Positions 1 through 17,991 of a DNA stretch of 44,000 nt are shown piece by piece (positions within the stretch are counted from its first letter, which is position 1; the number at the start of each line of letters is the position of its first letter). The notes below the pieces were generated by a model. That model was given only the letters and a program-made list of their open reading frames with translations, did no database searches and had not been told where the DNA came from. The position numbers were made by a program, and so were the translations under genes. This stretch comes from Geopsychrobacter sp. (lineage in GTDB: Bacteria; Desulfobacterota; Desulfuromonadia; Desulfuromonadales; Geopsychrobacteraceae), in assembly GCA_012974425.1 (NCBI GenBank), contig JAAXQE010000190.1, forward strand, positions 1 to 44,000. The letters are read 5' to 3'.

Positions 1-627
1 CTGGGGCTGCTGAGTAGCCCAGAATTGTTGCTGATTTTCTCGCTGGCGCTCGGCAAGCCATATAGTTTGAATCTGGTTGAGTGCAGCGCCTGCCCCAATG
101 CGGGGATGCTGCCATCTTTACGGGCCGCAGCAGCTGAAGTCGGCGCGATTTTGGCTCACGCCTGCCTGATCGAAGCTGAACAGCATCTTGATTTCAGGGA
201 GAGCGGCGTGAGTCGGCGTGAGTTTTTTAGCCTGCTGCGTCGCCAGACCGAGGTTGCCGTCTGTTCGCTGGCGGATCAACTCCACGAGGTGCCTGAGCGT
301 CCCTACGGGGAGAAATCCCTTCCTCCGCAGCGCCTGTTGCTCATGCAGCTTTTGAAACGCAAACCTGAGGTTGAGCGCGCCGAACTTGTTGCCCGACTTT
401 TCCCCCAGATTGAAATCTCAAGCGTCAGTTGCTCGGGTTGCAGCGGTTGCGTCGGTCTCTGCCCAACCGGGGCCTTGTTGCCAGCGCGCAACCCTGACGA
501 CCCACCAACGGCCCATCCCCCAAACTGCACGGAGTGCGGCCTTTGCAGTGCTTTCTGCAGCAAAGCTGCAATCACTGTGACTCCGGGTTGGCTATCGCAG
601 GCGGCCAAGCATGTGCTTGCTGGTTAG
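1..627 (+). CDS. 4Fe-4S ferredoxin-type protein, 5' end cut by window edge
   Basis: The reading frame is open from base 1, so the true start lies outside the window; the visible part is about 208 residues. The C-terminal third carries two ferredoxin-like cysteine groups, C-S-G-C-S-G-C-V-G-L-C-P and C-T-E-C-G-L-C-S-A-F-C, which should bind two [4Fe-4S] clusters. A further C-S-A-C-P pair lies near the visible N-terminus. No signal peptide or membrane segment is visible in this part. It is probably a cytoplasmic electron carrier or an Fe-S accessory protein of a redox enzyme encoded upstream; the partner cannot be seen. The stop is TAG at 625-627. Confidence 0.75.
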   Translation: MGLLSSPELLLIFSLALGKPYSLNLVECSACPNAGMLPSLRAAAAEVGAILAHACLIEAEQHLDFRESGVSRREFFSLLRRQTEVAVCSLADQLHEVPERPYGEKSLPPQRLLLMQLLKRKPEVERAELVARLFPQIEISSVSCSGCSGCVGLCPTGALLPARNPDDPPTAHPPNCTECGLCSAFCSKAAITVTPGWLSQAAKHVLAG

Positions 628-2909: not shown

Positions 2910-3637
2910 TATTCCTCACCGATATTAAAGATACGATACTGTTCAAGGATATCCTGCAGGTTCAGACCCTGTTCTTCGAGCACCCGATGGTAGGGGCTGG
3001 TGCGTGGATTGTCGACCAGACCTCGGCAACCGCGGCAGCGATCTCCCCCCGCGATACAGATCGCGCGGCAGCCGGCGCGGGTCACCGGGCCGAGGCAGAT
3101 CTCACCGTAATCGAAGCTACAGGGGTATTCGGCCAGCTTGCATTCGACACAGACCGCGAAGCTTGGCAGGTCGGGTTCGCGCTCCAGCAGCAGCGCCTGG
3201 AGCACCGCGAGAAACTCGCGCCCGTCGATCGGACAGCCGGGGATGCGGTAATCGACCTTGACCACCTTGTGCAGCGGCAGGGGCGTCTCGGTTTGCAGGT
3301 GCTTGGCATCACTGGCGTAGACCTGCCGGCGGAGTGCAGCGACATCCTGATCACTCGCCAGCAGATTGATCCCGCCATTGTCGGCACAGGCGCCGAGGGC
3401 GACCAGAGTTTTGCTGCGCGCGCGGATGGCCTGCAGGCGTTCCCGATCTTGCCGCCGGGTGATGCTCCCTTCAATAAAGGCGATATCGAGGGCGCTGACC
3501 TCTTCTGACATCAGTTCCCGAAATTCAACCACCTCGACCAGTTGCAGCACCTGCAGCAGGTCATCCTCCAGATTCATGACGGTGAGTTGGCAGCCTTCAC
3601 AGCCGGTAAAGTCGAAGAAGCCGATTCTGGTTTTCAT
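2909..3637 (-). CDS. Cytoplasmic [NiFe] hydrogenase small (delta) subunit
   Basis: 242 residues. It resembles HydD/MvhG/HoxY-type small subunits: the proximal-cluster motif GCEGCQLTVMN lies near residue 13, followed by GACADNGG and PGCPIDG, which supply the remaining proximal-cluster ligands. A C-terminal set of cysteines (CVECKLAEYPC, CLGP, GCRAIC, CRGCRG) can hold additional Fe-S clusters. It has no Tat signal, unlike the small subunit at 9276-10388, so it works in the cytoplasm and passes electrons between the large subunit and the fused diaphorase protein. The start codon overlaps the upstream stop by four bases (ATGA). Confidence 0.92.
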   Translation of the reverse strand: MKTRIGFFDFTGCEGCQLTVMNLEDDLLQVLQLVEVVEFRELMSEEVSALDIAFIEGSITRRQDRERLQAIRARSKTLVALGACADNGGINLLASDQDVAALRRQVYASDAKHLQTETPLPLHKVVKVDYRIPGCPIDGREFLAVLQALLLEREPDLPSFAVCVECKLAEYPCSFDYGEICLGPVTRAGCRAICIAGGDRCRGCRGLVDNPRTSPYHRVLEEQGLNLQDILEQYRIFNIGEE

Positions 3638-5529
3638 CGTTCAATCGCCTCGGCCATGTGCTTGACGCTGCTGTAGGGGAAGATCGGGCCACATTCACAG
3701 ACGCAGATATTGTTGATCCGGCATTTGCCACACTTTCCCAGACCGCATTTTATGTGGCGCTCAAGGTTGAGGTAGATATCCTCATCCGCTAATCCGAGGC
3801 GGAAGAGGAGGGGATTGATCTGGCGATACATCTCGGGCGGGCCGGAAACCGCGGCAATGGTCCGGCTGGCATCGATATCCAGATCCCGCAACAGGTAACT
3901 GACGTCGACCGCCGGTATTCCCCAGCTGTTATGCTGTTCATTGACCGAAAAGCGGCAGTCGACCAGCCCGGAACGGTGCCAATCGAGGAGATCTTCCTGA
4001 AAGAGGAGCGATTCGATCGAGCGCGCGCCACATAACAGCGTGATCCGCCCGTAATTTTCGCGCTGGGACAACAGCGCGAGCATCAATGAACGCAGGGCGA
4101 TCAGGCCGCGGCCACCGGCGATCAGCAGCAGGTCATGCCCCTGCATCTTCTCCAGCGGGTAGCCGTTGCCGAAGGGTCCCCGGATACCGAGACTGTCACC
4201 ACTTCTGACCCGGTGTAGCGCCTGGGTCAGGGCTCCGGCGCGGCGCACCACCAGCTCGATTTCTTCTGTCCCGTCAGGGGCGGAGGCGATAGAGAACGGG
4301 GCTTCGCCGAGACCGAAGACCGAGACCTGCAGAAAACTGCCAGGCAGAAAAGTGAATTGCTCCGGGATTTTGAGACGGAACAGGCGGTCCTCGCTTGAAA
4401 TAACTTCGATCCGTTCGACCTTGGCCATCTGCGGTTGGTATTCACTGCCGGGGTTGGTAGGCTGCTGCTGTGGCGGGGCCTGGCAGAAGAGCTCATTTAA
4501 GACCTCGGTCGGTTTTATTTTGGCCAGACATTCCCGGCTGCAACGCCCACAACCGACACAGGCGGTGCGCTGATGCTGGTCCCACAGGTATTTGTATTTA
4601 CGATAAAAACGGTGCCGTTGCCGGTCTGACTGACTCGCGCGGAAGTTGTCACCGCCACTGACCTTGGCAAACTGGTCGAACTGGCAGCTGTCCCAGGTGC
4701 GCACTCGTTGCCCCTCTTTGAGGTCGAGCTCCAGTTTGTCCTGTACGTTAAAGCAGTAGCAACTGGGGCAAAGCAGGGTGCAGCCTCCGCAGCCGAGACA
4801 GTCATCTCCGAGCCTTTTCCAGATCGGATCCTCGTAGGCATCTTTCATCAGCAGCGGCAACGATTCGGTCGGAAATTGCAGATGGCTTTTGCACTGTTTG
4901 ACCTGCAGCGCCAGCGGGGCCTCATGCTCCCTTGCCATGGTTTCAGGGGCATGGTCGGCCAGCAGTTGACGGCCCTGCTCACTGCCGGTTTGGACCAGGT
5001 ACTTATCATCGCGGCGATGGAAGAACAGATCGAAACCGCTGGCAATGCGATCGGTGCCGAGACTGGTGCAGAAGCAGTGTTCGTCGGGCACACAGTCAAC
5101 CCCGATCAGCAGGGTTGCCTCCCGTTTGGCGCGGTAGGTGCTGTCGGTCTCCCCTTCAAACAGACAGTCGTCGAGAATTTTGACCGCGTGCAGGTCGCAG
5201 GGGTGCATGCCGAAGATGACGCGTGGCGGCGCGGCGCTCTCGGCCTCAAGCAGGACATTCCCCTCGAGTTTGAAGCGGAAAAGTTCATCCCAGTGGGGAA
5301 AGAGGAACTTCTTGGGGGAGTGGACCGACGGCGGAAATTCGAGTTCGAGGTCGGCGGCGTCGCTTAAGGTGCCGAGGGTGATCCGGCCTTTTTTGCGGCG
5401 CGGGGCGACAAGGTCGTAGGACTGCATCAGTGCCCGTGCAAAACGCAGAATCTCCGCCAGGCTCATTGCCAGCCAGAGGGTCTCATCCGGTGTGTTTTGA
5501 TGTGTTGTACTGGATATGGGTGCAGGCAC
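3634..5529 (-). CDS. Fused hydrogenase beta-gamma subunit (HydB-HydG-like Fe-S/flavin diaphorase)
   Basis: 631 residues. Residues 1-350 match the beta (HydB/AsrA-like) Fe-S subunit: ligands of two [4Fe-4S] clusters lie at about 243-257 (C-L-G-C-G-G-C-T-L-L-C-P) and 324-334 (C-V-G-C-G-R-C-S-R-E-C). Residues 365-631 match the gamma (HydG/AsrB-like) ferredoxin-NADP reductase-type subunit: an FAD-binding EAPFSIAS at about 409, GPFGNG at 451, a nucleotide-binding AGGRG at about 471, and a C-terminal cysteine group at 595-614 for a [2Fe-2S]-type cluster. In Pyrococcus-type sulfhydrogenases these are separate proteins. The GTG start lacks a clear Shine-Dalgarno; an ATG at 5466 (22 residues in) is an alternative that fits HydB N-termini about equally well. 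The stop overlaps the small subunit start (ATGA). Confidence 0.88.
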   Translation of the reverse strand: MPAPISSTTHQNTPDETLWLAMSLAEILRFARALMQSYDLVAPRRKKGRITLGTLSDAADLELEFPPSVHSPKKFLFPHWDELFRFKLEGNVLLEAESAAPPRVIFGMHPCDLHAVKILDDCLFEGETDSTYRAKREATLLIGVDCVPDEHCFCTSLGTDRIASGFDLFFHRRDDKYLVQTGSEQGRQLLADHAPETMAREHEAPLALQVKQCKSHLQFPTESLPLLMKDAYEDPIWKRLGDDCLGCGGCTLLCPSCYCFNVQDKLELDLKEGQRVRTWDSCQFDQFAKVSGGDNFRASQSDRQRHRFYRKYKYLWDQHQRTACVGCGRCSRECLAKIKPTEVLNELFCQAPPQQQPTNPGSEYQPQMAKVERIEVISSEDRLFRLKIPEQFTFLPGSFLQVSVFGLGEAPFSIASAPDGTEEIELVVRRAGALTQALHRVRSGDSLGIRGPFGNGYPLEKMQGHDLLLIAGGRGLIALRSLMLALLSQRENYGRITLLCGARSIESLLFQEDLLDWHRSGLVDCRFSVNEQHNSWGIPAVDVSYLLRDLDIDASRTIAAVSGPPEMYRQINPLLFRLGLADEDIYLNLERHIKCGLGKCGKCRINNICVCECGPIFPYSSVKHMAEAIER

Positions 5530-7198: not shown

Positions 7199-8377
7199 TC
7201 AGTGATCTTCGAGGATCGGCAGGTAGTTGACTGCGAGTTTATAGAGGAAGACCCCGAAGGCCAAGAAGCCGAAGGTGATTGCAAACTCGCCGACCGATGG
7301 GAAATAATTCCAGCCGCCGCCCATATCCATGCCGATCAAGAAGACATTGAAACGGTAGGCGACGACGCCGCCGATGATCGACAGGGCGCATAGAAAGAGG
7401 CCTGTGCCATTTTCACGGACCTTGCGTACGAAGAGCAGCACAAAGGGGACGACGAAAAGCGCCATCTCGACCAGAAAGGCATTGCCCTGACGGCCGCCGG
7501 CAAGAGCCTCTGTGAGGGCGCCGCGGTAGATCAGATCGGCGAAGCGCAGCAGCAGAAAGGTGCCGAGGAAGAGCGGAATAATCCGCGCCAGATCGGCCAG
7601 CAGCGGCAGTTCCGATTTGCGCCCGAAGAAGTAGCTCGCCAGGGTCCCTTCGAAGATAACCATCGGCAGACCGACACTCATGGCTGAGAGTAGGAAGAGC
7701 AGTGGTGACCAGGCGGTCATCCAGAGTTCATGCAGCTTGTTGGGTGCGATCAGCATCATGGTGCCGAGTGAGGACTGGTGGCCGAAGGAGAGCACCACGC
7801 CGGCGATGACGAAGAAGACCCCGACGCGGCGCAGGATCTTTTCGGAACGGCTGAGAAAACCCTCGCTCGTTTTGTTGAAAGCCGACAGGGGGCCGGGCAG
7901 ATTGACCTTCCCTTTGTACTGCTCGATGACATTCGGCAGGTTTTCGATCGCCAGGACGTTGAGATAGAGCATGACGCACCAGGCAACTTCGAACAACACC
8001 GAGTTGCCGTTCCAGTAGATCAGGGTGTGCCAGATGTAGTACCAGCGGCCGAGGTCGAACATGACCGCCATTGCCACCAGCATGTAGCCGATGAAGGCGG
8101 TCAGCAGCGCCGGGCGCAGCAGCGAGTGGTACTTGTGGCGGCCGAAGATCTCGACCACCAGGCAGGTGGTGAAACCGCCTGCGGCCAGGGCGACGCCGCA
8201 GGCGACGTCGAAGGCGATCCAGATGCCCATCGGGTAGCTAGGGTTGAGGTTGGTCACCGAACCGAAGCCGTAGACGAAGCGGAAATAGGCGAAAACGGCG
8301 GCTGAGGCCATGAAAAAGACCAAAAGCCAGGCGTTCGGTGTCCAGAATTTCTGATGCAGTGGAGCCGCTTTACTCAT
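7199..8377 (-). CDS. hybB: Hyb-type hydrogenase integral membrane subunit, NrfD/PsrC family
   Basis: 392 residues from ATG 8377, which follows AGGGAGG; this start overlaps the stop of the preceding gene by eight bases. The protein is almost entirely hydrophobic, with roughly ten membrane segments, as in the NrfD/PsrC/HybB family, which passes electrons from periplasmic Fe-S subunits to the quinone pool. It is the last gene of the large-protease-small-FeS-membrane operon. A longer reading frame upstream of the ATG runs through the Fe-S gene and is not expected to be used. Together with the neighbours it would form a quinone-linked, membrane-bound uptake hydrogenase. Confidence 0.88.
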   Translation of the reverse strand: MSKAAPLHQKFWTPNAWLLVFFMASAAVFAYFRFVYGFGSVTNLNPSYPMGIWIAFDVACGVALAAGGFTTCLVVEIFGRHKYHSLLRPALLTAFIGYMLVAMAVMFDLGRWYYIWHTLIYWNGNSVLFEVAWCVMLYLNVLAIENLPNVIEQYKGKVNLPGPLSAFNKTSEGFLSRSEKILRRVGVFFVIAGVVLSFGHQSSLGTMMLIAPNKLHELWMTAWSPLLFLLSAMSVGLPMVIFEGTLASYFFGRKSELPLLADLARIIPLFLGTFLLLRFADLIYRGALTEALAGGRQGNAFLVEMALFVVPFVLLFVRKVRENGTGLFLCALSIIGGVVAYRFNVFLIGMDMGGGWNYFPSVGEFAITFGFLAFGVFLYKLAVNYLPILEDH

Positions 8378-9272
8378 CGGGCCCTCCCTTCTCTTCTGCC
8401 TTGTTCTTGCGGTTGGTGAAGGCCATGATGCCACCCAGGGCTGCATAGATGGCGACCGGCGGGATAAAATACTTGAAAACGCCGTGCTGGATGCTTTCGG
8501 TCAGGCGCGGCGGGGCCTTGAAGCCGAGATCGGGCAGGCCGAGTGTGGCGAAGGCGACCTTCTTCTTGGTCAGGTAGATCACGTTGGTGCCGCCGATCTC
8601 CTTCTCGCCATAGATATGATCTAGGTAGAGCTCCGGGCTGGCCGCGATCCGCTCTCTGGCGACTTTCAGCAGGTCGTCCCGTTTGCCGAAGCTGATCGCC
8701 CCGGCCGGGCAGGACGTGGTGCAGCCGGTCGGCAACTCCTTGTTGAGGCGGGTGTCGGCGCACAGGGTGCACTTGCTGATAGCGGGGATCGCCTCTTTCC
8801 ATTGAAACTGCGGCACATTGTAGGGGCAAGCCACCATGCAGTAGCGGCAGCCCATGCACTTGTTGCCGTCCCATTCGACCGCGCCATTCTCCTGCTTGAC
8901 CAAGGCGCCGACCAGGCAGGCCGACTGGCAGGCCGGATCGATGCAATGCATGCACTGTTTCTTGACGAAGGTCGCCTCGCCGCTTTCGCCCTGATGCATC
9001 TTGATCAGGGTGTAGGTGCTGTCCGACAGGTCACGCGGGGAATCGTAGTAGTCCCCCTCGAGGCTCGAGTCGGGCGGCAGCTTGTTGATCTGTTTGCAGG
9101 CCGACTGGCAGGCCTTGCAGCCGATGCAGCGTACCGAATCCTGCAGCATGCCGTAGCCGTCGGCGCCGATCCGCCTGGCACTGTCCGCAGCGAAGGTCGG
9201 GCTGGCGAGGGCGCAGGCAGTACCGCACCCGGCGGCTGCGACCTTGAAGAATTTTCTTCGGTCCATAGCCAT
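8370..9272 (-). CDS. hybA: Hyb-type hydrogenase periplasmic 4Fe-4S subunit
   Basis: 300 residues. A Tat signal (D-R-R-K-F-F-K followed by a hydrophobic alanine-rich stretch) exports the folded protein. Four ferredoxin-like cysteine groups follow: CIGCKACQSAC, CMHCIDPACQSAC, CMGCRYCMVACP and CTLC with the later C-T-T-S-C-P, consistent with four [4Fe-4S] clusters. Near the C-terminus YFIPPVAIYAALGGIMAF is a single membrane anchor. It relays electrons between the hydrogenase small subunit and the NrfD-like membrane subunit. It begins three bases after the small subunit stop; a second in-frame ATG two codons on is an equally possible start. Confidence 0.92.
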   Translation of the reverse strand: MAMDRRKFFKVAAAGCGTACALASPTFAADSARRIGADGYGMLQDSVRCIGCKACQSACKQINKLPPDSSLEGDYYDSPRDLSDSTYTLIKMHQGESGEATFVKKQCMHCIDPACQSACLVGALVKQENGAVEWDGNKCMGCRYCMVACPYNVPQFQWKEAIPAISKCTLCADTRLNKELPTGCTTSCPAGAISFGKRDDLLKVARERIAASPELYLDHIYGEKEIGGTNVIYLTKKKVAFATLGLPDLGFKAPPRLTESIQHGVFKYFIPPVAIYAALGGIMAFTNRKNKAEEKGGPDE

Positions 9273-9275
9273 TGT

Positions 9276-10388
9276 TTACTCCCTCTCGTCTTGATCGTCC
9301 AGATCACCTTGGCCGCCGTTGTCACCTTTTTTCAGGATGTTCATCCCGGCGGCACCCACGGCTAAACCGGCCAATGCACCATAGGTCGGGGTGAAGTCGA
9401 CCCCCTGCTTGCGCTCGGTGGTGATCGGCGGATAGGCGGCCGGCGGGGTGACCTGCTGCAATTGAACCGGATTATGCATCGAGCCCTCGTAGGGGAACTC
9501 CGGTTCACAGCAGCCGATACAGGGGTGGCGGTTTTCGATACACCAGTTGGTCCCGGAGTTGAATTTCTTCTCGGGGCAGTTGGCATGGACGACCGGACCC
9601 TTGCAGCCGAGCTTGTAGAGGCAGAAGTCGTCGGAGAACTTCTCGGCGAAGCGACCGGCGTCGAAATGACCGCGTAACGGACAGTTGTCATGAATCAGTT
9701 TCTTGTAGTGCATCAGCGGGCGGCCCTTGTCGTCGAGCTCGACCGCATCGAGGCCACCGAGCAGGATGGCGGCGACGGTGCTGACGAACCAGTCGGGGTG
9801 CACGGCGCAGCCCGGCAGGTTGATCACCGGGGTGGCGACGTTTTTATCTCTCAAGAATTCGGCCACGCCGACCGAATCACTCGGATTCATGTTGGCCTTG
9901 TTGACTCCGCCGTAGGCGGCGCAGCTTCCGACCGCCAGCACTGCAAGCGCTTTTTTGCCGAGACGCTCGACATGTTCGGTGACCGGGATGCCGTGACCGT
10001 CCTTCTCACCGACCTCCATGTAGGTGCCGCCTGCGGCGCGACCGACCGAGCCTTCGACGACCAGGATGAACGGTTTTTCCTCAACCTTGTACATATGCTC
10101 CATGGCCAGATCGCCTGAAGCGGCCATGAGGGTCGGGTGCCAGGCCAGTTCGGTGTGATGGCCCGGGATCACTTGATCGAGCAACACATCCTGGATGCGT
10201 GGCGAAAGGGTATTGAGCAGCGAAACGCTGCAACCGGAACAGGCCCCGCCCGCCAGCCAGATGATCGGGGTTTCCTTGATCGCATCGGCAAAGGCGCTGC
10301 GCAGGGTCGGGTTGTCGAACAGGTTGACGCCGATCGCGGCGGCGCTGCCTGCGGATACCTTGAGAAAATTACGACGTGAAATCGCCAT
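9276..10388 (-). CDS. hybS: Periplasmic [NiFe] uptake hydrogenase small subunit
   Basis: 370 residues. The twin-arginine motif S-R-R-N-F-L-K begins at residue 4, so the mature dimer is exported. Proximal-cluster ligands are in CSGCSV, GSCAAYGG and PGCAVHP; medial and distal cluster ligands are in the C-terminal half (CLYKLGCKGPVVHANCP, NWCIENRHPCIGCCEPEFP). A hydrophobic stretch near the C-terminus (about residues 342-354) may help anchor it. The context identifies it as the partner of the large subunit at 10896-12455 even though the protease gene lies between them. The symbol hybS follows the Geobacter naming of this enzyme. Confidence 0.92.
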   Translation of the reverse strand: MAISRRNFLKVSAGSAAAIGVNLFDNPTLRSAFADAIKETPIIWLAGGACSGCSVSLLNTLSPRIQDVLLDQVIPGHHTELAWHPTLMAASGDLAMEHMYKVEEKPFILVVEGSVGRAAGGTYMEVGEKDGHGIPVTEHVERLGKKALAVLAVGSCAAYGGVNKANMNPSDSVGVAEFLRDKNVATPVINLPGCAVHPDWFVSTVAAILLGGLDAVELDDKGRPLMHYKKLIHDNCPLRGHFDAGRFAEKFSDDFCLYKLGCKGPVVHANCPEKKFNSGTNWCIENRHPCIGCCEPEFPYEGSMHNPVQLQQVTPPAAYPPITTERKQGVDFTPTYGALAGLAVGAAGMNILKKGDNGGQGDLDDQDERE

Positions 10389-10404
10389 ATTTAGAGTCTC
10401 CTTT

Positions 10405-10899
10405 TTATATTGAATTCAACGAACTATTGATCTCTTCGAGCACCAGCTCTGCGGCCTTTTCGATGCGCGCGGCAACCACGTCGCTGAGGCCGATCCCCAG
10501 CTCGGTCTGCTGCGGTTGGCAACCGATAATCACGGTTTCATCCGGCTTGCAGTCGACCAGTTCACCCAGACGCAGGGTTTCGAGCAGGCCGACCTGGTGC
10601 AGGGTGTTCATCGGCAGCGCCTGATTCTCGACATCTTCTGGGGAGAAGCGATAGAGAGTCCCGGCCGGCTGACCGCCACGCACGGCATCCAGTACGATCA
10701 GTTTCTTGCGACCGTTGAAGACCTCCATCAGATCGATGGCGCTGGTGCCCGCGTCGAAGAGTTCGATCTCTGCGGGCAGATCCTGCTCTTCGAGGCGCCG
10801 CAGCACCGTCTCGCCGAAGCCGTCATCCTGCTTGAGGATGTTGCCGACCGCCATGACCAGGATCGGCGCATAGGCTGATGTCAGAGGCTGCGCAATCAC
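10405..10899 (-). CDS. hybP: Hydrogenase maturation endopeptidase (HybD/HyaD family)
   Basis: 164 residues from the GTG at 10899, which overlaps the large subunit stop as GTGA; longer in-frame starts lie inside the large subunit gene. The N-terminus VMAVGNILKQDDGFGE is the family signature; the aspartate after Gln in this loop, an Asp in DAGTSAIDL and the His in NTLHQVGL correspond to the three nickel-sensing ligands known in HybD. It should cleave the C-terminal tail of the Hyb large subunit after nickel insertion. It is the only such protease visible in the window. Confidence 0.9.
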   Translation of the reverse strand: MIAQPLTSAYAPILVMAVGNILKQDDGFGETVLRRLEEQDLPAEIELFDAGTSAIDLMEVFNGRKKLIVLDAVRGGQPAGTLYRFSPEDVENQALPMNTLHQVGLLETLRLGELVDCKPDETVIIGCQPQQTELGIGLSDVVAARIEKAAELVLEEINSSLNSI

Positions 10900-12455
10900 T
10901 CGCCACCTACCACGAAGCGCCCGAGATCCTCGCCCTTGGGGGTGACGACGTGTACGGCGCAGGAGAGGCATGGATCGTAGGCACGAACAATCCGCACCAG
11001 TTCAAAGGGGTTACGCTCGTCTTTGACCTTGGTGCCGATCAATGACTGCTCGATGGGACCCGGCTGCCCCTTGGCGTCGACCGGACCGGCGTTCCAGGTG
11101 GTCGGCACGATGGCCTGATAGTTCTTGACCTTGCCGTCGACCACGTCGATCCAGTGGCCCAGGGCACCGCGTGGAGCTTCGTGCAGACCCATGCCGCGGT
11201 TGGTGACATTGAGCGGGTAGTCGGTGAAGGTCGGCTCGCCCGGCTTGAGCTGGAGGACCCAGTCCTTGAGACGCTCGGCGACGATCTTGGTTTCGATGGC
11301 GCGCGCCGCGTGGCGGCCGAGGGTCGAGAAGAGGACATCTGGCCCGGCGTTGAACTTGGCGAGGACGCCGTTGACCATCGACTGGACCTCTTGGTCGCCG
11401 CGCACATAGGCGACGAGTATGCGTGCCAGTGGGCCAACTTCCATGACCTCGCCAGCGTAACGCGGCGATTTGATCCAGCTGTAGGCGCCAGCCTTGTCGC
11501 GTTCGGCAACGGTCGAACCGTCGTAGGGGTGAACCGGGCCGGTCTCTTTGAACCAACTGCTGACCACCTCTTCGGTGATCTTGCTTGGATCGAGCTCGCG
11601 CAGTTTGAGGTCGGCGCCGACGATACCGTTGGGGAAGTAGCGCTTGCGGGCGATCAGGTCGGGGTTGCTGTCGAGATCGAAGCCACCGAAGCTAAGCATG
11701 GTCTTGCAGCCAGCACCGATGCCGAAGTAATCGGAATAGCGGCCGGCAACCATCATCACGTCGGGCAGATAGCGGCTGTCGATGAAGTCGATCAGGCGTT
11801 CGATCTTCCACAGGAAGGAAGCGATCTTGTCGATGGTCGGGGCGACAGTGACGCCCCCGGGGACGATCGACATGTTGTGCGGCATTTTGCCGCCAAAGAC
11901 AGCGACCGCTTCATGGGCCAGACGGCGCATGTCGAGGGCTTCGACATAGTGAGCAACCGCGGCCTGGTTTTCGCCTTTAGTCAGACGATAGTCGCCTTCG
12001 TAGCGGGGCAGGAAGGGACCCAGGTGGCCCCGCGCGATGAAGTCTTTGACCTTCTTCATGGCTGGATCGCTGCCCGAGTAGTCGGCACAGGCGGTGACAT
12101 CGACAAAGTCGAGGGCGGCCAGATGATAGAAGTGGAGGATGTGCGATTGCACGAAGTTGGCACCCTGAACCAGATTACGGATGATGCGACCGTTATCGGT
12201 GATGCTGCCGTTGACGTTGTAGACCTCATCCAGAGCATAGGTCGCGGCCAGACCGTGTGAGGTCGGGCAGACGCCGCAGATGCGTTGCATGATGCGCGAG
12301 GCATCGCGCGGGTCACGGCCTTGGAGAATGTTCTCCAGTCCGCGATACATCATGCCGGAGCTTTTGGCTTCCTTGACGGTCCCGTTCTCGACCACGGCCT
12401 CGATCTTCATGTGGCCTTCGATACGGGAGATTGGATCGATTACGATTTTTGCCAT
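10896..12455 (-). CDS. hybL: Periplasmic [NiFe] uptake hydrogenase large subunit
   Basis: 519 residues from the ATG at 12455, preceded by GGAGAGAG; an upstream in-frame start at 12518 would add 21 residues that do not look conserved. MAKIVIDPISRIEGHMKIE is the family N-terminus, RICGVCPTSHG carries the first Ni cysteine pair and DPCLSCAVH the second, followed by a 17-residue C-terminal extension for the maturation protease. It has no signal of its own and would be exported with the Tat-bearing small subunit. It is the first gene of the operon, unlike the Geobacter order in which the small subunit comes first. Confidence 0.93.
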   Translation of the reverse strand: MAKIVIDPISRIEGHMKIEAVVENGTVKEAKSSGMMYRGLENILQGRDPRDASRIMQRICGVCPTSHGLAATYALDEVYNVNGSITDNGRIIRNLVQGANFVQSHILHFYHLAALDFVDVTACADYSGSDPAMKKVKDFIARGHLGPFLPRYEGDYRLTKGENQAAVAHYVEALDMRRLAHEAVAVFGGKMPHNMSIVPGGVTVAPTIDKIASFLWKIERLIDFIDSRYLPDVMMVAGRYSDYFGIGAGCKTMLSFGGFDLDSNPDLIARKRYFPNGIVGADLKLRELDPSKITEEVVSSWFKETGPVHPYDGSTVAERDKAGAYSWIKSPRYAGEVMEVGPLARILVAYVRGDQEVQSMVNGVLAKFNAGPDVLFSTLGRHAARAIETKIVAERLKDWVLQLKPGEPTFTDYPLNVTNRGMGLHEAPRGALGHWIDVVDGKVKNYQAIVPTTWNAGPVDAKGQPGPIEQSLIGTKVKDERNPFELVRIVRAYDPCLSCAVHVVTPKGEDLGRFVVGGE

Positions 12456-12602
12456 TAATCTCTCTCCTGCTTTGGGTTCATGAGGGAACCCCTTGATATG
12501 GATTCTCCCCGCATACACGGGGGGTGACTGACAACCTGCTTATGCCACTCATTAAAAGAGACATTTTGCGAAGAAAACAGTGATTCAAGGGAGCGGGAAG
12601 GG

Positions 12603-12729: not shown

Positions 12730-14106
12730 TCATTCTGTCTCGTTCTGGAGGTTTTCTTTCTGAATGTTGTACTGCAAAAGCTTGCGATCGAGGGTGCGGC
12801 GAGCAATCTGCAGGATTTGCGCAGTACGGACCTTGTGGAAGCGGGTCTGGCGATAGACCTGCTCGATATAGAGCCGTTCGACATCTTCGAGGCTCATCCC
12901 TTTCTTGGGAGCGGCCATGGGGGTAACACTCTCGGTGGCGATCTTGGTCGGGAGGTGTTGCATGCAAATCTCCCCGTTTTCGGCCAGGATAACCGACATT
13001 TCGATGATGTTTTCCAGCTCACGAACATTGCCGGGCCAGCTGTATTCGGTCAGCATCTGCATCGCGGCCTGATCGATGCGCAGCTGGTCACGGCCGGCGA
13101 AACGCTCGATGAAGAAGTGGGCCAGCGGCGGGATATCTTCCGGGCGCTCGCGCAGGGGCGGGACATACAGGGTGATGACATTCAGGCGGTAGAAGAGGTC
13201 CTCGCGGAAGTTGCCGGCCTTGACCTCGTCCTCGAGACACTTATTGGTGGCGGCGATGAAGCGCACGTTGGCGTGGCGCACCTTGGTCGAACCGACCGGG
13301 ATGTATTCCCGTTCCTGCAATACTCGCAGGAGTTTGGCCTGCAGGGCCGGGCTGATGTCGCCGATTTCATCCAGGAACAGGCTGCCATGCTCCGCTTCCT
13401 CGATCAGTCCCTGGTGGGTAGCGACCGCGCCGGTGAAGGCCCCTTTGATGTGGCCGAAGAGCTGGCTTTCGAGCAGGGTGTCGGTCAGGGCGGCGCAGTT
13501 GATGGTCAGGAAACGTCTGTCGCGGCGGTTGCTGCTGTAGTGGATGGTTGAGGCGATCACCTCTTTGCCCGCACCACTCTCGCCGGTGATCAGGATGCTC
13601 GCTTCGCTGGGTGCGACCTTTTGCGCCATCTCGAAGACCTTGCCGAAGGCCGGGCTGCGGTAGATGACCTGCTCCGGGTCGAAACGCCGGCGTATTTCGG
13701 CCTTTAAGGAGCGGTTTTCGCTCAGCAGGCGGTTGTGTTCGATCAGTTTGTCGACCAGATTGTAGAGTTCACTCGAGGTGAACGGCTTGAGCAGAAAATC
13801 GTGGGCGCCCTGCTTCATCGCTTCGACCGCGCTGCGCACCGTACCGAAGGCGCTCATCATCACGACTTTCTGGGCCGGGCGCTGGGCCTTGATCCGCCGG
13901 AGCAGATCGAGGCCATCGAGGTCTGGCATGCGCATGTCGACCAGGATCAGGTCGGGGAGGTCCTCCTCCTGTTCGGCTAGCGTCTGGAGCAGCAGCTGTC
14001 CCTGTCCGAACGTGCTGACCTTATGCCCCTGGGCATTCAGCATCTTCTCCAGCAGGCATTGTACGCCCTGGTCGTCATCGCAGATATAGATCTTGCCGGT
14101 TTGCAT
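12730..14106 (-). CDS. Sigma-54-dependent response regulator, NtrC family (orphan, hydrogenase-linked)
   Basis: 458 residues from the ATG at 14106, which begins the conserved receiver domain; the reading frame stays open upstream but that part is non-coding in character. Receiver domain 1-120: acidic pocket CDDD at 9-12, phospho-acceptor D57, K107. AAA+ domain about 145-375: Walker A GESGAGKE at 175-182, the sigma-54 contact loop GAFTGA at 222-227, Walker B LFLDEIGD near 243-250. The C-terminus has a Fis-type helix-turn-helix (VRTAQILQIARRTLDRKL). It stands alone between the Hyb operon and hypA, the position of HoxA-like hydrogenase activators, so control of the hydrogenases is likely but inferred. 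The nearest unpaired kinase is at 18649-20514. Confidence 0.9.
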   Translation of the reverse strand: MQTGKIYICDDDQGVQCLLEKMLNAQGHKVSTFGQGQLLLQTLAEQEEDLPDLILVDMRMPDLDGLDLLRRIKAQRPAQKVVMMSAFGTVRSAVEAMKQGAHDFLLKPFTSSELYNLVDKLIEHNRLLSENRSLKAEIRRRFDPEQVIYRSPAFGKVFEMAQKVAPSEASILITGESGAGKEVIASTIHYSSNRRDRRFLTINCAALTDTLLESQLFGHIKGAFTGAVATHQGLIEEAEHGSLFLDEIGDISPALQAKLLRVLQEREYIPVGSTKVRHANVRFIAATNKCLEDEVKAGNFREDLFYRLNVITLYVPPLRERPEDIPPLAHFFIERFAGRDQLRIDQAAMQMLTEYSWPGNVRELENIIEMSVILAENGEICMQHLPTKIATESVTPMAAPKKGMSLEDVERLYIEQVYRQTRFHKVRTAQILQIARRTLDRKLLQYNIQKENLQNETE

Positions 14107-14131
14107 CAAGGGAGCTCCATGGATCACTAAA

Positions 14132-14145
14132 AACCGTATACGGTT
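14132..14145. promoter_or_regulatory. Perfect 14-bp palindrome AACCGTATACGGTT, possible operator
   Basis: It lies 26-39 bp before the response regulator ATG, inside the divergent interval 14107-14389. The core is the same CGTATACG as at 5558 and 6671. Its position suits autoregulation of the regulator gene or control by a shared factor. Confidence 0.45.
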
Positions 14146-14262
14146 AAATACTCTAAATATGTGAATTAAGGGCGGAATGTGGATTCCGACGCTTGATTTT
14201 TTTACCGGGTTGAATTTATAGTAGCGCTCTGTCGCAACCGGCACCGGCTTGGGATATACAAG

Positions 14263-14292
14263 AAGGGTGCCGCCTTTAGGGAGACCCTTTTT
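14263..14292 (+). terminator. Possible attenuator hairpin in the hypA leader
   Basis: AAGGGT (14263-14268) can pair with ACCCTT (14284-14289), and a run of five T (14288-14292) follows. The stem is short and the loop is 15 bases, so it is weak. It lies about 100 bp before hypA on the coding strand, where it could act as an attenuator. Confidence 0.3.
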
Positions 14293-14389
14293 CTGTGACG
14301 ATTGCTCGTCCGGTGTGCTGTTAAAGCAGAACACTGAGCTATTTACGAGACTATAGCGGAAGGCTCCCCATTGGGGTAAAGGAAAAGTT

Positions 14390-14731
14390 TTGCACGAACT
14401 TGGAATCACCCAGAGTATTGTCGAGATTGCGCTCCGCACCGCCGCAGGGCAGCAGGCCCAAAAAATCCATTCTGTCACCTTGGAGATTGGTTCTCTGGCC
14501 GGGGTTGTTGGCGAAGCCCTCGAATTTTGTTTTGAGGCTTGCAGCAAGGAGACTCTGCTTGAGGGGAGTCGGCTGATTATCGAACCGGTTCAGGCTAAGG
14601 CGCGTTGCCGCGCTTGTGCGCTTGAGTATCCGCTGACCGATCTGCTGGCCTGTTGTCCGGCTTGTAACAGCGCTGCGGGGGATTTGATCTGCGGTGAAGA
14701 GCTACGTATTAAAGAAATGGAGATCGACTGA
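14390..14731 (+). CDS. hypA: Hydrogenase nickel incorporation protein HypA
   Basis: 113 residues. The start is a TTG at 14390: the conserved MHELGIT N-terminus, whose second residue His binds nickel, begins exactly there, and GGAAAAG lies just upstream. Two zinc-binding CxxC pairs (CRAC, CCPAC) occupy about residues 73-96. HypA with HypB delivers Ni to the hydrogenase large subunit. It is the first gene of the plus-strand hypABCDE cluster. Confidence 0.95.
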   Translation: MHELGITQSIVEIALRTAAGQQAQKIHSVTLEIGSLAGVVGEALEFCFEACSKETLLEGSRLIIEPVQAKARCRACALEYPLTDLLACCPACNSAAGDLICGEELRIKEMEID

Positions 14732-14734
14732 CCT

Positions 14735-15505
14735 ATGTGTATCGACTGTGGCTGTGGCCCCTCAGATCACCACCATCATCACCACCATCATGATGATCAT
14801 CATCACCACCCCGAGACCGGCGCTCCGCGCAAGACGATCAGCGTAGAGGAGGATATCCTCTCCAAGAATAATCGCCTGGCAGCGGGGAACCGTGCGCTCT
14901 TCGCCGAAAAGGGGATCTTTACCCTCAATCTGGTCAGTTCGCCCGGCAGCGGTAAGACCAGCCTGCTCGAGAAGACACTGGTCGATCTGAAGGATGAGCT
15001 CTCTTTTGCGGTCCTCGAAGGGGATCAGCAGACCACTAATGACGCTGACCGGATTGCCGCGACCGGCACCCCGGCCTACCAGATCAATACCGGCGCAGGC
15101 TGCCATCTCGATGCGCATATGGTTGGCCATGGCCTGGAGCATTTCGCTCTGGATGCGCTGGAGATGCTGATGATCGAAAATGTCGGCAACCTGGTCTGCC
15201 CCGCGTCTTTCGATCTGGGTGAAGATTTCAAGGTCTCGCTGCTGTCGGTCACCGAGGGGGAAGACAAGCCCCTCAAGTACCCACAGATGTTCCGGGCCAG
15301 TGAGATTATGCTGATTAATAAGATCGACCTGCTGCCGCATCTGCGCTTCGATGTCGCCAAGTGCCGTGAATATGCCGAACGGGTGCATCCCGGGATCAAG
15401 ATTTTCGAGGTCTCCTGCTACAGCGGTGAGGGGCTCGATCAATGGTATGCCTGGTTGAAAGAACAGGTTGTAGCCAAAGGCAGACTGGTGAGGAGTAAGG
15501 GGTAG
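14735..15505 (+). CDS. hypB: Hydrogenase nickel incorporation GTPase HypB
   Basis: 256 residues, beginning three bases after hypA. The N-terminus has the CxxCGC high-affinity nickel motif (MCIDCGCG) followed by a histidine-rich stretch of 12 His in 16 residues (from about residue 12), used for nickel storage in some HypB proteins. The GTPase domain shows Walker A SSPGSGKTSL (about 68-77), the metal-binding cysteine and histidines in TGAGCHLDAHMV, and NKID (G4 motif). GTP hydrolysis drives Ni transfer with HypA. Confidence 0.96.
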   Translation: MCIDCGCGPSDHHHHHHHHDDHHHHPETGAPRKTISVEEDILSKNNRLAAGNRALFAEKGIFTLNLVSSPGSGKTSLLEKTLVDLKDELSFAVLEGDQQTTNDADRIAATGTPAYQINTGAGCHLDAHMVGHGLEHFALDALEMLMIENVGNLVCPASFDLGEDFKVSLLSVTEGEDKPLKYPQMFRASEIMLINKIDLLPHLRFDVAKCREYAERVHPGIKIFEVSCYSGEGLDQWYAWLKEQVVAKGRLVRSKG

Positions 15506-15560
15506 GAACACCTCTCGCCTCACACCTCTCGCTTTTATCCCTCTTAAAGGAGTTGAAATT

Positions 15561-15794
15561 ATGTGTCTGGCCGTGCCGATGAAGATAGCCGAAATTGCCG
15601 AGGGTACCGCGATCTGTGAGGTTGACGGAGTGCGCCGTGAGGCGAGTCTGATGATGCTTGAGGATGCGGTGGTCGGTGACTATGTCCTGATCCACGCCGG
15701 ATTCGCCATCGAGAAGCTCGATCCGCTTGAGGCTGAGAAGACTCTCGCGATTTTCCGGGAGGTGCTCGAAGCGGGGGGTGGAGTCGAGGCATGA
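15561..15794 (+). CDS. hypC: Hydrogenase assembly chaperone HypC
   Basis: 77 residues starting MCLAVPMKI, the invariant HypC/HybG N-terminus with the essential Cys at position 2 that carries the Fe(CN)2CO unit with HypD. AAAGGAG precedes the ATG. The stop overlaps the hypD start (ATGA). In the 55-bp gap after hypB an imperfect tandem of CACCTCTCGC occurs twice. Confidence 0.95.
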   Translation: MCLAVPMKIAEIAEGTAICEVDGVRREASLMMLEDAVVGDYVLIHAGFAIEKLDPLEAEKTLAIFREVLEAGGGVEA

Positions 15795-16885
15795 AGTACA
15801 GCACGGAATACCGTGATCCGGAACTGGCGAAGGGCCTGATCGCCGCGATAGCCAAAGATGTTGCGGACTATGCGGGTCAGATAACCCTGATGGAGGTCTG
15901 TGGCACCCACACCATGTCGATCTACCAGCATGGTATCCGTAATTTGCTCCCGGCGCAGGTCCGTTTGATCAGTGGCCCGGGTTGCCCGGTCTGCGTTACC
16001 CCGATCGGCTACGTCGACCAGGCCGTAGCCTATGCGCGTCGAGAGCAGACGATCGTTGCCACCTTCGGCGATATGGTCCGCGTGCCCGGTTCAAGCAGTA
16101 ACCTGCAGCGCGAGAAGGCCGAGGGCGCTGATGTGCGGATTGTCTACTCGCCCCTCGATGCGCTCGCCATCGCCGAAAAGAATCCCGACCAGAGCGTAGT
16201 CTTTCTCGGGGTCGGATTTGAGACGACTGCCCCGACCATCGGTGGCAGTCTGCTCGAGGCCGAAAAGCGTGGGCTGAAGAATTTTTTTGTGCTCTGTGCG
16301 CATAAGACCATGCCGACCCCGATGATCGCTCTGGCCAGCGACCCCGAACTCAAGGTCGATGGCTATATATGTCCTGCCCATGTCAGTGCGGTAATCGGTT
16401 CGGATGCCTACCGGCCCATCGCCGAGGGTTTCGGGGTGCCCTGCGTGGTGACAGGTTTTGAGCCGGTCGATATGTTGCGTGGCATTCAGCTGTTGGTGCG
16501 CCAGGTGCTAGCGGGCGCAGCCAGGGTCGAATGTGAGTACAGTCGGATCGTTAAGCCCGCAGGAAACCGCACGGCCCAGGCGATTTTGTTCAAGGTTTTT
16601 GAACCCTGCGATGCCGACTGGCGCGGCATCGGCCCTATCCCGAATAGCGGCCTGCAGCTGCGCGAGGCCTATCGCAAGTTTGACGCATTGACTGCCCTGC
16701 CGGTCGAAGTCGAAGAGCCGCGCGAGCACAAGGGCTGTTGCTGTGGTGAAATTCTCAAGGGGAAGCTCGGCGCCAAGGATTGTCCCCTCTTTCGCAAGAG
16801 TTGCACCCCGGAGCATCCAATCGGTGCCTGTATGGTGAGCAGCGAAGGAAGCTGCGCGGCGGAGTACAAATACGGGGACTGTTAA
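15791..16885 (+). CDS. hypD: Hydrogenase formation scaffold protein HypD
   Basis: 364 residues. Family motifs are complete: EVCGTHTMSIYQHG, SGPGCPVCVTP, GFETTAP and the C-terminal cysteines CCCGEILKGKLGAKDCPLF that bind the [4Fe-4S] cluster. It holds the Fe(CN)2CO precursor with HypC and passes it to the large subunit. It is translationally coupled to hypC by a four-base overlap. Confidence 0.96.
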   Translation: MKYSTEYRDPELAKGLIAAIAKDVADYAGQITLMEVCGTHTMSIYQHGIRNLLPAQVRLISGPGCPVCVTPIGYVDQAVAYARREQTIVATFGDMVRVPGSSSNLQREKAEGADVRIVYSPLDALAIAEKNPDQSVVFLGVGFETTAPTIGGSLLEAEKRGLKNFFVLCAHKTMPTPMIALASDPELKVDGYICPAHVSAVIGSDAYRPIAEGFGVPCVVTGFEPVDMLRGIQLLVRQVLAGAARVECEYSRIVKPAGNRTAQAILFKVFEPCDADWRGIGPIPNSGLQLREAYRKFDALTALPVEVEEPREHKGCCCGEILKGKLGAKDCPLFRKSCTPEHPIGACMVSSEGSCAAEYKYGDC

Positions 16886-16974
16886 AGCCGTGCGGCGTTC
16901 CATGTTCGACGTTGAAATACCAAGCATTAGGCCTTGCATCTAAGTGCATCGAAATATTTGATGGAGAGTTTCTT

Positions 16975-17991
16975 ATGAAAGACGATATCATCCTGCTCGG
17001 CCATGGCAGTGGCGGTAAGCTGAGTCATCAACTGCTGGACGAACTGATTATCCCGATCCTCTCGCAGGTCGCTCAGTCCGAGCAGAACGATGCGGCGGTG
17101 CTTGAGGGGATAACCGGCGAGCGTATCGCCTTTACCACCGATAGTTTCGTGGTCGATCCGATTTTTTTCCCTGGCGGAAATATTGGTGATCTGGCGATCA
17201 ACGGCACGGTCAACGATCTGGCGATGAGTGGCGCCCGGCCGCTGGCGCTGAGCGTTGCTCTGATTCTGGAGGAGGGTCTTAAGCTGGCTGAACTGCGTGA
17301 GATTCTTGAGTCGATGAAGAGAGCAGCCGATAAGGCCGGAGTCAAGATTGTCACCGGTGATACCAAGGTGGTCCCGCGTGGCAAGGGGGATAAGATCTTC
17401 ATCAATACCTCCGGGATCGGTCTCTTCGATCATGACCTGCGCCCAGCGGGGAGTGCCGCCAGGCCGGGCGATAAGGTGTTGATCAACGGCAGTATCGGTG
17501 AGCATGGCATGGCGGTCTTGGCCAGCCGCGAGGGTCTGGATCTGCACAGCGAGATTGCGACCGACAGCGCCCCCCTGAATGCCATGGTGGCTAAATTGCT
17601 GGCCGCACATGGCGCGGCGATTCACGTGCTGCGTGATCCGACCCGTGGTGGGGTGGCGACCACCCTCAAGGAGATCGCCCTCCAATCGGGGGTGGATATC
17701 TGTCTTGCCGAGGAGTCCCTGCCGGTGAATGCTGCGGTGGCTGGCGCCTGTGCAATTCTCGGGCTCGATCCGTTGTTTGTCGCTAACGAAGGGAAACTGT
17801 TGGTGATTGTTGCGCCCGAGGAGGCCGATAGCGCCCTGGCGACGCTGCAGGGCTGTGAGTATGGTGAGCAATCGGCCATTATCGGTGAGGTGACAGCTGT
17901 TTCGGCTGGTCGGGTGATGATGCGTACCGCCATCGGCGGCCTGCGCGCAATCGAAATGCTGGCCGGTGAGCAGCTACCGCGAATCTGCTGA
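16975..17991 (+). CDS. hypE: Hydrogenase maturation protein HypE (carbamoyl dehydratase)
   Basis: 338 residues from the ATG at 16975, preceded by GGAGAG and starting MKDDIILLGHGSGGK, the family N-terminus; an open frame extending upstream into hypD is not used. The ATP-binding PurM-like fold is indicated by GHGSGGKLS, TTDSFVVDP and GDTKVVPRG. The C-terminal PRIC supplies the cysteine that is carbamoylated by HypF and dehydrated to thiocyanate for the CN ligands. hypF is not found in the window. Confidence 0.95.
   Translation: MKDDIILLGHGSGGKLSHQLLDELIIPILSQVAQSEQNDAAVLEGITGERIAFTTDSFVVDPIFFPGGNIGDLAINGTVNDLAMSGARPLALSVALILEEGLKLAELREILESMKRAADKAGVKIVTGDTKVVPRGKGDKIFINTSGIGLFDHDLRPAGSAARPGDKVLINGSIGEHGMAVLASREGLDLHSEIATDSAPLNAMVAKLLAAHGAAIHVLRDPTRGGVATTLKEIALQSGVDICLAEESLPVNAAVAGACAILGLDPLFVANEGKLLVIVAPEEADSALATLQGCEYGEQSAIIGEVTAVSAGRVMMRTAIGGLRAIEMLAGEQLPRIC

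Follow-up and report, generated by a model that had tools for sequence, protein, structure and literature searches.

A sulfhydrogenase-type beta-gamma fusion with a modified nucleotide site in a predicted cytoplasmic [NiFe] hydrogenase of Desulfuromonadales

The Locus and Its Gene Products

The window, that is, the whole stretch of 44,000 nucleotides of a Geopsychrobacter sp. contig that was analysed, carries close to its beginning three [NiFe] hydrogenase genes, all on the minus strand (Table 1): a gene for a fused electron-transfer subunit, a small-subunit gene and a large-subunit gene, the last two also overlapping. The fused gene is a single open frame of 631 codons, and both halves of its product are matched by family models, so that the earlier note, which gave no strand, was right in placing beta and gamma on one polypeptide. 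The Pfam domains are Fer4_22 (residues 244-338), FAD_binding_6 (369-455), NAD_binding_1 (469-570) and the DHODB-type Fe-S domain (590-622), while the NCBIfam matches are to a ShyB/HydB-like beta subunit (27-347) and to a hydrogenase-gamma-like protein (363-620). The earliest residue that is invariant across 28 relatives of the fused protein is W19. Since three adjacent genes stand where four are usual, the enzyme would be a heterotrimer, as had been proposed, the actual stoichiometry lying beyond what a sequence can tell; that the fused subunit would act as a fixed diaphorase arm is plausible.

Table 1: Features of the window (residue numbers refer to the encoded proteins).
Feature	Position	Strand	Remarks
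Fused beta-gamma electron-transfer subunit, 631 aa	3634..5529	(-)	GTG start, exact start codon uncertain
Beta half, about residues 17-350	4480..5481	(-)	Fer4_22 dicluster domain and further conserved cysteines
His-114, Cys-122 and His-171 of the beta half	5017-5190	(-)	
Linker, residues 349-361	4447..4485	(-)	
Gamma half, residues 362-631	3637..4446	(-)	FAD_binding_6, NAD_binding_1 and DHODB-type 2Fe-2S
Nucleotide loop GGRGLIALRS, residues 472-481	4087..4116	(-)	Ala-478 for the usual Pro
SGPPEMY, residues 562-568	3826..3846	(-)	Ser-562 for the usual Cys of CGPPxM
Hydrogenase small (delta) subunit, 242 aa	2909..3637	(-)	Start overlaps the end of the fused gene
Hydrogenase large (alpha) subunit, 428 aa	1623..2909	(-)	CxxC pairs C62/C65 and C415/C418
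4Fe-4S protein	25-627	(+)	Very start of contig, possibly cut by contig end
Hyb-like cluster	7199-12518	(-)	Large subunit, maturation protease, small subunit, HybA-like protein, HybB-like cytochrome b
ORF resembling a sigma-54 response regulator	12730-14547		
hypB (His-rich N-terminus), hypD, hypE	14735-17991	(+)	
Small ORF, possibly hypC	15561-15794		No NCBIfam match at strict cut-off

The join falls where the earlier note had put it, at about residues 350-361. Its Pro/Gln-rich composition, also remarked on there, is real in this protein but is no general trait, being confined to this genus among the 28 linkers compared; composition varies freely, whereas the length is retained (at most one residue fewer or two more than in the present protein), as are the flanks, mostly of the form VLNxLF...PGxEYxP. 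Purifying selection acts on both halves: when the gene is set against five close relatives, omega comes to 0.02-0.06 in beta and 0.06-0.10 in gamma, compared to 0.38-0.74 for the linker, all rough figures given a linker of only 13 codons and dS above 1 in several of the comparisons.

The operon is adjoined by the Hyb-like cluster, which encodes a membrane-linked group 1-type [NiFe] hydrogenase and parts of which lie near the fused operon in several related loci as well; by Pfam, the genome encodes three other [NiFe] large subunits, the one of this cluster included. Maturation genes are present, as hypB, hypD and hypE all occur in the window. In related loci, a protease-like cluster lies 3' of the operon in four cases (confirmed as HycI-type in L042), and in two relatives a sigma-54 response regulator gene, which the ORF at 12730-14547 of the window resembles, lies directly 5' of the fused gene (L037, 3452-4834; L039, 3274-5004). 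Ten neighbouring ORFs, some of them probably shadow frames, were scanned, and five gave no Pfam match.

Authenticity and Distribution of the Fusion

A missed stop or frameshift joining two genes in this particular assembly would also produce a 631-codon frame, and the genome is indeed a draft of 327 contigs; this explanation is nevertheless already refuted, because independent genomes share the open frame, and the probability left to it is negligible. Within the order, 136 genomes were surveyed; the fused protein finds a match (E 1e-75 or better) in 36 of them, and in 34 of these the linker region is crossed in one frame. In a further one (G027) the frame breaks elsewhere and is open over the linker (residues 299-440), bringing the total to 35 of 136 genomes, spread over 19 of the tally's 53 genera. 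The remaining match (G047) consists of separate genes, with no hydrogenase subunit found beside them, and two genomes (G031 and G035) that have a matching large subunit and whose linker is hidden by contig ends are left outside the 35. The open linker frame, of nearly constant length, occurs also in the named isolates Malonomonas rubra DSM 5091 and Geothermobacter hydrogeniphilus HR-1. One of the 34, a Desulfuromonas MAG (G050; loci L016 and L050), has an in-frame stop at about residue 81, a long way from the linker, which may be an error or the mark of a decaying copy.

The fusion is thus real and not a sequencing accident, and within its clade it is the norm. Among the 136 genomes no split counterpart of this hydrogenase type turned up, and the rarity that the earlier note had implied does not hold: that note had itself named commonness in the order as the finding that would count against it, and for this hydrogenase type the fused form is the only one seen there, so that the fusion remains as a character of the clade. 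In a sample spread evenly over the phylum, the fused form was found in 7 of 395 genomes, six from the order (the window genome included) and one, G310 (a Deferrisomatales record, L048), from outside both the order and its class. Beyond the phylum the scan relied on patterns taken from one sequence, and distant or independent fusions may exist. No description of a fused beta-gamma subunit was recognised among the open-licence papers listed for this hydrogenase type or for a fusion in it, a weak negative.

Family Assignment and Structure Model

The best solved relatives of all four parts are the chains of P. furiosus SHI, the fused protein aligning with two separate chains (9nez_B over residues 54-340, 9nez_C over 365-622) and the alpha and delta subunits with 9nez_D and 9nez_A, respectively; for alpha and delta, the matches that follow 9nez in the PDB are other SHI or related cytosolic entries, then F420-non-reducing, methyl-viologen and NAD-reducing hydrogenases. 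A group 3b-like assignment is consistent with three observations: the closest characterised relatives of alpha and delta belong to SHI, which we take to be filed as group 3b; the CxxC pairs that ligate Ni are present in all 27 large subunits of the fused clade and in all 18 split ones; and an Fe-S beta and an FAD/NAD(P) gamma component are encoded in the operon, though fused. The scores fall far under the NCBIfam equivalog cut-offs for HydA/B/G/D and ShyA/B/C/D (alpha 257 vs 700-880; beta 209-234 vs 690-750; gamma 164-168 vs 600-650; delta 158-179 vs 460-500), so that the enzyme is to be called a relative and not a certified member.

With 28 fused rows as input, the structure model reached only a mediocre mean pLDDT of 69.8; with 74 rows (22 fused proteins and 52 single halves) a mean pLDDT of 91.8 and a pTM of 0.65 were obtained, residues 1-12 lying below 50 and the linker being among the least confident internal stretches (mean pLDDT 67 over residues 351-360). 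The beta half of this model superposes on 9nf0_B with Z 36.7 and an rmsd of 2.5 over 332 residues; for the gamma half, Foldseek ranks 9nf0_C, the gamma chain of the NADPH-bound form, third (TMt 0.85, rmsd 2.2), despite its absence among the 50 VIA-align rows.

It could also be supposed that the fused protein is the arm of an AsrAB-like anaerobic sulfite reductase that merely adjoins hydrogenase genes, a reading favoured by the scores of AsrA (151 bits) and AsrB (167 bits), the latter equalling HydG (168) on the gamma half. Against it, the beta half scores higher with ShyB (234) than with AsrA (151), the hydrogenase-gamma subfamily model PRK08345 reaches 215 on the gamma half, and small and large hydrogenase subunits follow both in the window and in the fused loci that are sufficiently long; the curated cut-offs of AsrA and AsrB are also missed (151 vs 323 and 167 vs 289 bits). 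The sulfite reductase reading is therefore very improbable, and, judged by homology, the protein is a sulfhydrogenase-type beta-gamma fusion.

Cofactor Motifs and the Nucleotide Site

The earlier note described all cofactor motifs as intact, which is true of the Fe-S cysteines, is mostly true of the FAD stretch and fails for both signatures of the nucleotide site. The beta cysteines (C244/247/250/254/257/259/282/324/327/330/334) and the gamma cysteines (C595/600/603/611) are each conserved in 27/27 fused and 18/18 split sequences, and the stretch EAP[FL][ST]IAS occurs in most of the 28 aligned rows. Three further residues of the beta half, His-114, Cys-122 and His-171, are present in 27/27 fused and 0/18 split sequences.

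The NAD(P)-using members of the FNR superfamily typically bear two signatures, GxGxxP with its Pro and CGPxxM with its Cys; all 33 distinct fused sequences lack both residues, and some of the sampled relatives lack one. In the fused proteins the loop reads GG[RLMI]Gxx[TAIV][LI]RS (one starts with RG) vs GGLGxxPLR in split hydrogenase gammas, and SGP[PAT]xM stands for the CGPPxM found elsewhere: at position 478, Thr (21), Ala (10), Ile (1) or Val (1) replaces Pro, and position 562 is Ser in 33/33. The C-terminus is AIER in 30 of the 33, the others having AVER, AIEG or a truncated end. In the split paralogues, here designated types B and C (labels coined in this analysis), Pro is kept in 20/20 and Cys in 17/20 (type B: Pro 10/10, Cys 8/10 with two Val; type C: Pro 10/10, Cys 9/10 with one Ser). 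A third group of gammas, presumably Flx-like, has Pro in 5/5 and Val for Cys in 5/5, and the gammas with no hydrogenase genes found beside them have Thr for Pro in 19/22 and Cys in 22/22. Each replacement thus occurs alone elsewhere; both together occur in 33/33 fused sequences and in 0/47 of the other gammas grouped. The counts exclude 27 fused-gene copies that are truncated (loci L089-L118), and one locus with the fused pattern (L022) and one with the split pattern (L138) were set aside as "other"; the type B loci include three (L051, L066 and L067) whose membership of the order is not known.

We infer that the double substitution alters nucleotide affinity or the rate of hydride transfer. 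Altered nucleotide chemistry is plausible and a change of partner possible; in the latter case the same fused hydrogenase would no longer have NAD(P)(H) as its main partner and would exchange electrons with a ferredoxin- or flavodoxin-like protein or with a sulfur compound, the nucleotide pocket persisting as a relict. The joint replacement of the two residues throughout the fused sequences speaks for such a change; what speaks against it is that each change is tolerated alone in relatives (Thr for Pro in the 19 of 22 gammas just mentioned, Val or Ser for Cys in 8 others), that E. coli Fre works without a Cys of the CGPPxM type, that Pfam still recognises the NAD-binding domain with a score exceeding the cut-off (27.9 vs 22), and that, in a limited look covering those neighbours that were annotated, a part of the total, no electron-carrier gene was recognised beside the operon. 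On balance, a change of partner appears unlikely. The uniformly altered site, which the earlier note took as intact, is the more interesting part of the system; the fusion alone is a modest evolutionary event.

Split Relatives and Descent

Besides the fused type, the order also has the split types B (large subunit of about 450 aa, 40-44% identity to that of the window) and C (about 420 aa, 32-38%). By large-subunit matches, 14 genomes of the order hold the fused type alongside a split relative (G002, G005, G007, G017, G027, G048, G055, G068, G074, G095, G096, G106, G108 and G128); the second operon was fetched whole in seven of them (G007, G017, G048, G055, G096, G106 and G108), always with separate beta and gamma genes. 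At the same cut-off the window genome has the fused one only. This co-occurrence suggests that the roles may differ, and it is a further point in favour of a change of partner.

In unrooted trees of 27 fused and 18 split operons, from which L019 was excluded as no large-subunit locus was available for it, one branch parts all fused from all split sequences, with support of 1.0 for beta, 0.999 for gamma, 0.979 for delta, 0.965 for alpha and 1.0 for the concatenation; in the midpoint-rooted trees the node of the fused group carries values of 0.06-0.82, taken as those of other branches moved by the rooting. The length of the dividing branch is 0.83 for beta, 0.51 for gamma, 0.41 for delta and 0.29 for alpha, or 1.10, 0.61, 0.46 and 0.31 times the mean distance within the fused group. 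Change appears greater in the electron arm than in the catalytic core, an impression to be read with the facts that an unrooted branch mixes both sides and that beta is the most divergent among the split types too; the longer beta and gamma branches would likewise suit a changed partner. A more specific proposal is that the arm was repurposed after the fusion, rapid hydride exchange with NAD(P) being lost in favour of single-electron trade with a protein carrier or a sulfur species; this is less probable still than a change of partner as such, and, if true, some genomes would pair such an arm with an ordinary split paralogue.

A single fusion event is the simplest reading of the trees: in a beta-gamma-delta-alpha gene row, the boundary separating the first two genes would have been lost once, in the ancestor of the clade.

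Proposed Function and Its Significance

The enzyme is most likely an H2:NAD(P) oxidoreductase, cytoplasmic and trimeric, whose nucleotide site is modified. More fully, we read the locus as encoding a Desulfuromonadales form of group 3b-like [NiFe] hydrogenase, located in the cytoplasm and with beta and gamma merged into one chain (composition alpha-delta-(beta-gamma)), which passes electrons to or from NAD(P), a reading to which we assign a probability of roughly 0.68. It builds directly on the homology of each part, the gene order, the conservation of the Fe-S ligands, the grouping of the fused sequences and the purifying selection on them; stoichiometry, cellular location, direction of electron flow and the retention of NAD(P)(H) as partner are predicted from sequence. 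Electrons from H2 would travel from the NiFe site through the Fe-S clusters of delta and of the beta half to the 2Fe-2S cluster and FAD of the gamma half, ending at NAD(P)+, or would take the opposite course; by analogy with SHI, the fused subunit would connect the NiFe core with a flavin engaged in hydride exchange with NAD(P). The P. furiosus alpha-delta dimer is unable to use NADPH without beta and gamma, according to PMC3200332. The NAD(P) assignment is weakened by the replacement of Pro-478 and Cys-562 in all 33 fused sequences, and no biochemistry of any fused member was found.

The enzyme is a clade-specific variant of one already known. Its significance is that it marks, in Desulfuromonadales, a subtype of hydrogenase which would pass as NAD(P)-linked by family models despite the replacement of two usual nucleotide-site residues in all sequences examined; comparing fused and split relatives from one host would bear on the role of these residues, and a natural beta-gamma fusion offers a convenient template for the simpler expression of NAD(P)-coupled hydrogenases.

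Comparison with Known Systems

AsrA and AsrB, which are part of a sulfite reductase and not of a hydrogenase, share homologous beta-like and gamma-like subunits with the fused protein; on plasmids they are annotated as separate genes, in contrast to the one gene found here. Plasmid matches number 46, all below 60% identity, and among the 25 listed, 20 have two or three separate features and five have no annotation. The split group 3b-like hydrogenases of types B and C, drawn from the order and from its phylum, have the same four parts in the gene order beta-gamma-delta-alpha; their beta and gamma genes are separate and their gammas keep, in the proportions given above, the Pro and the Cys, neither of which is found in the fused type. 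P. furiosus SHI (PDB 9nez; NADPH-bound form, 9nf0) has the same four functional parts, with 31-34% identity in the two halves; its gamma keeps GLGTAPLRS and CGPPRM, in place of which Ala-478 and Ser-562 are found here. According to PMC3200332, the beta and gamma of SHI are separate chains of a four-polypeptide enzyme, whereas here they are fused.
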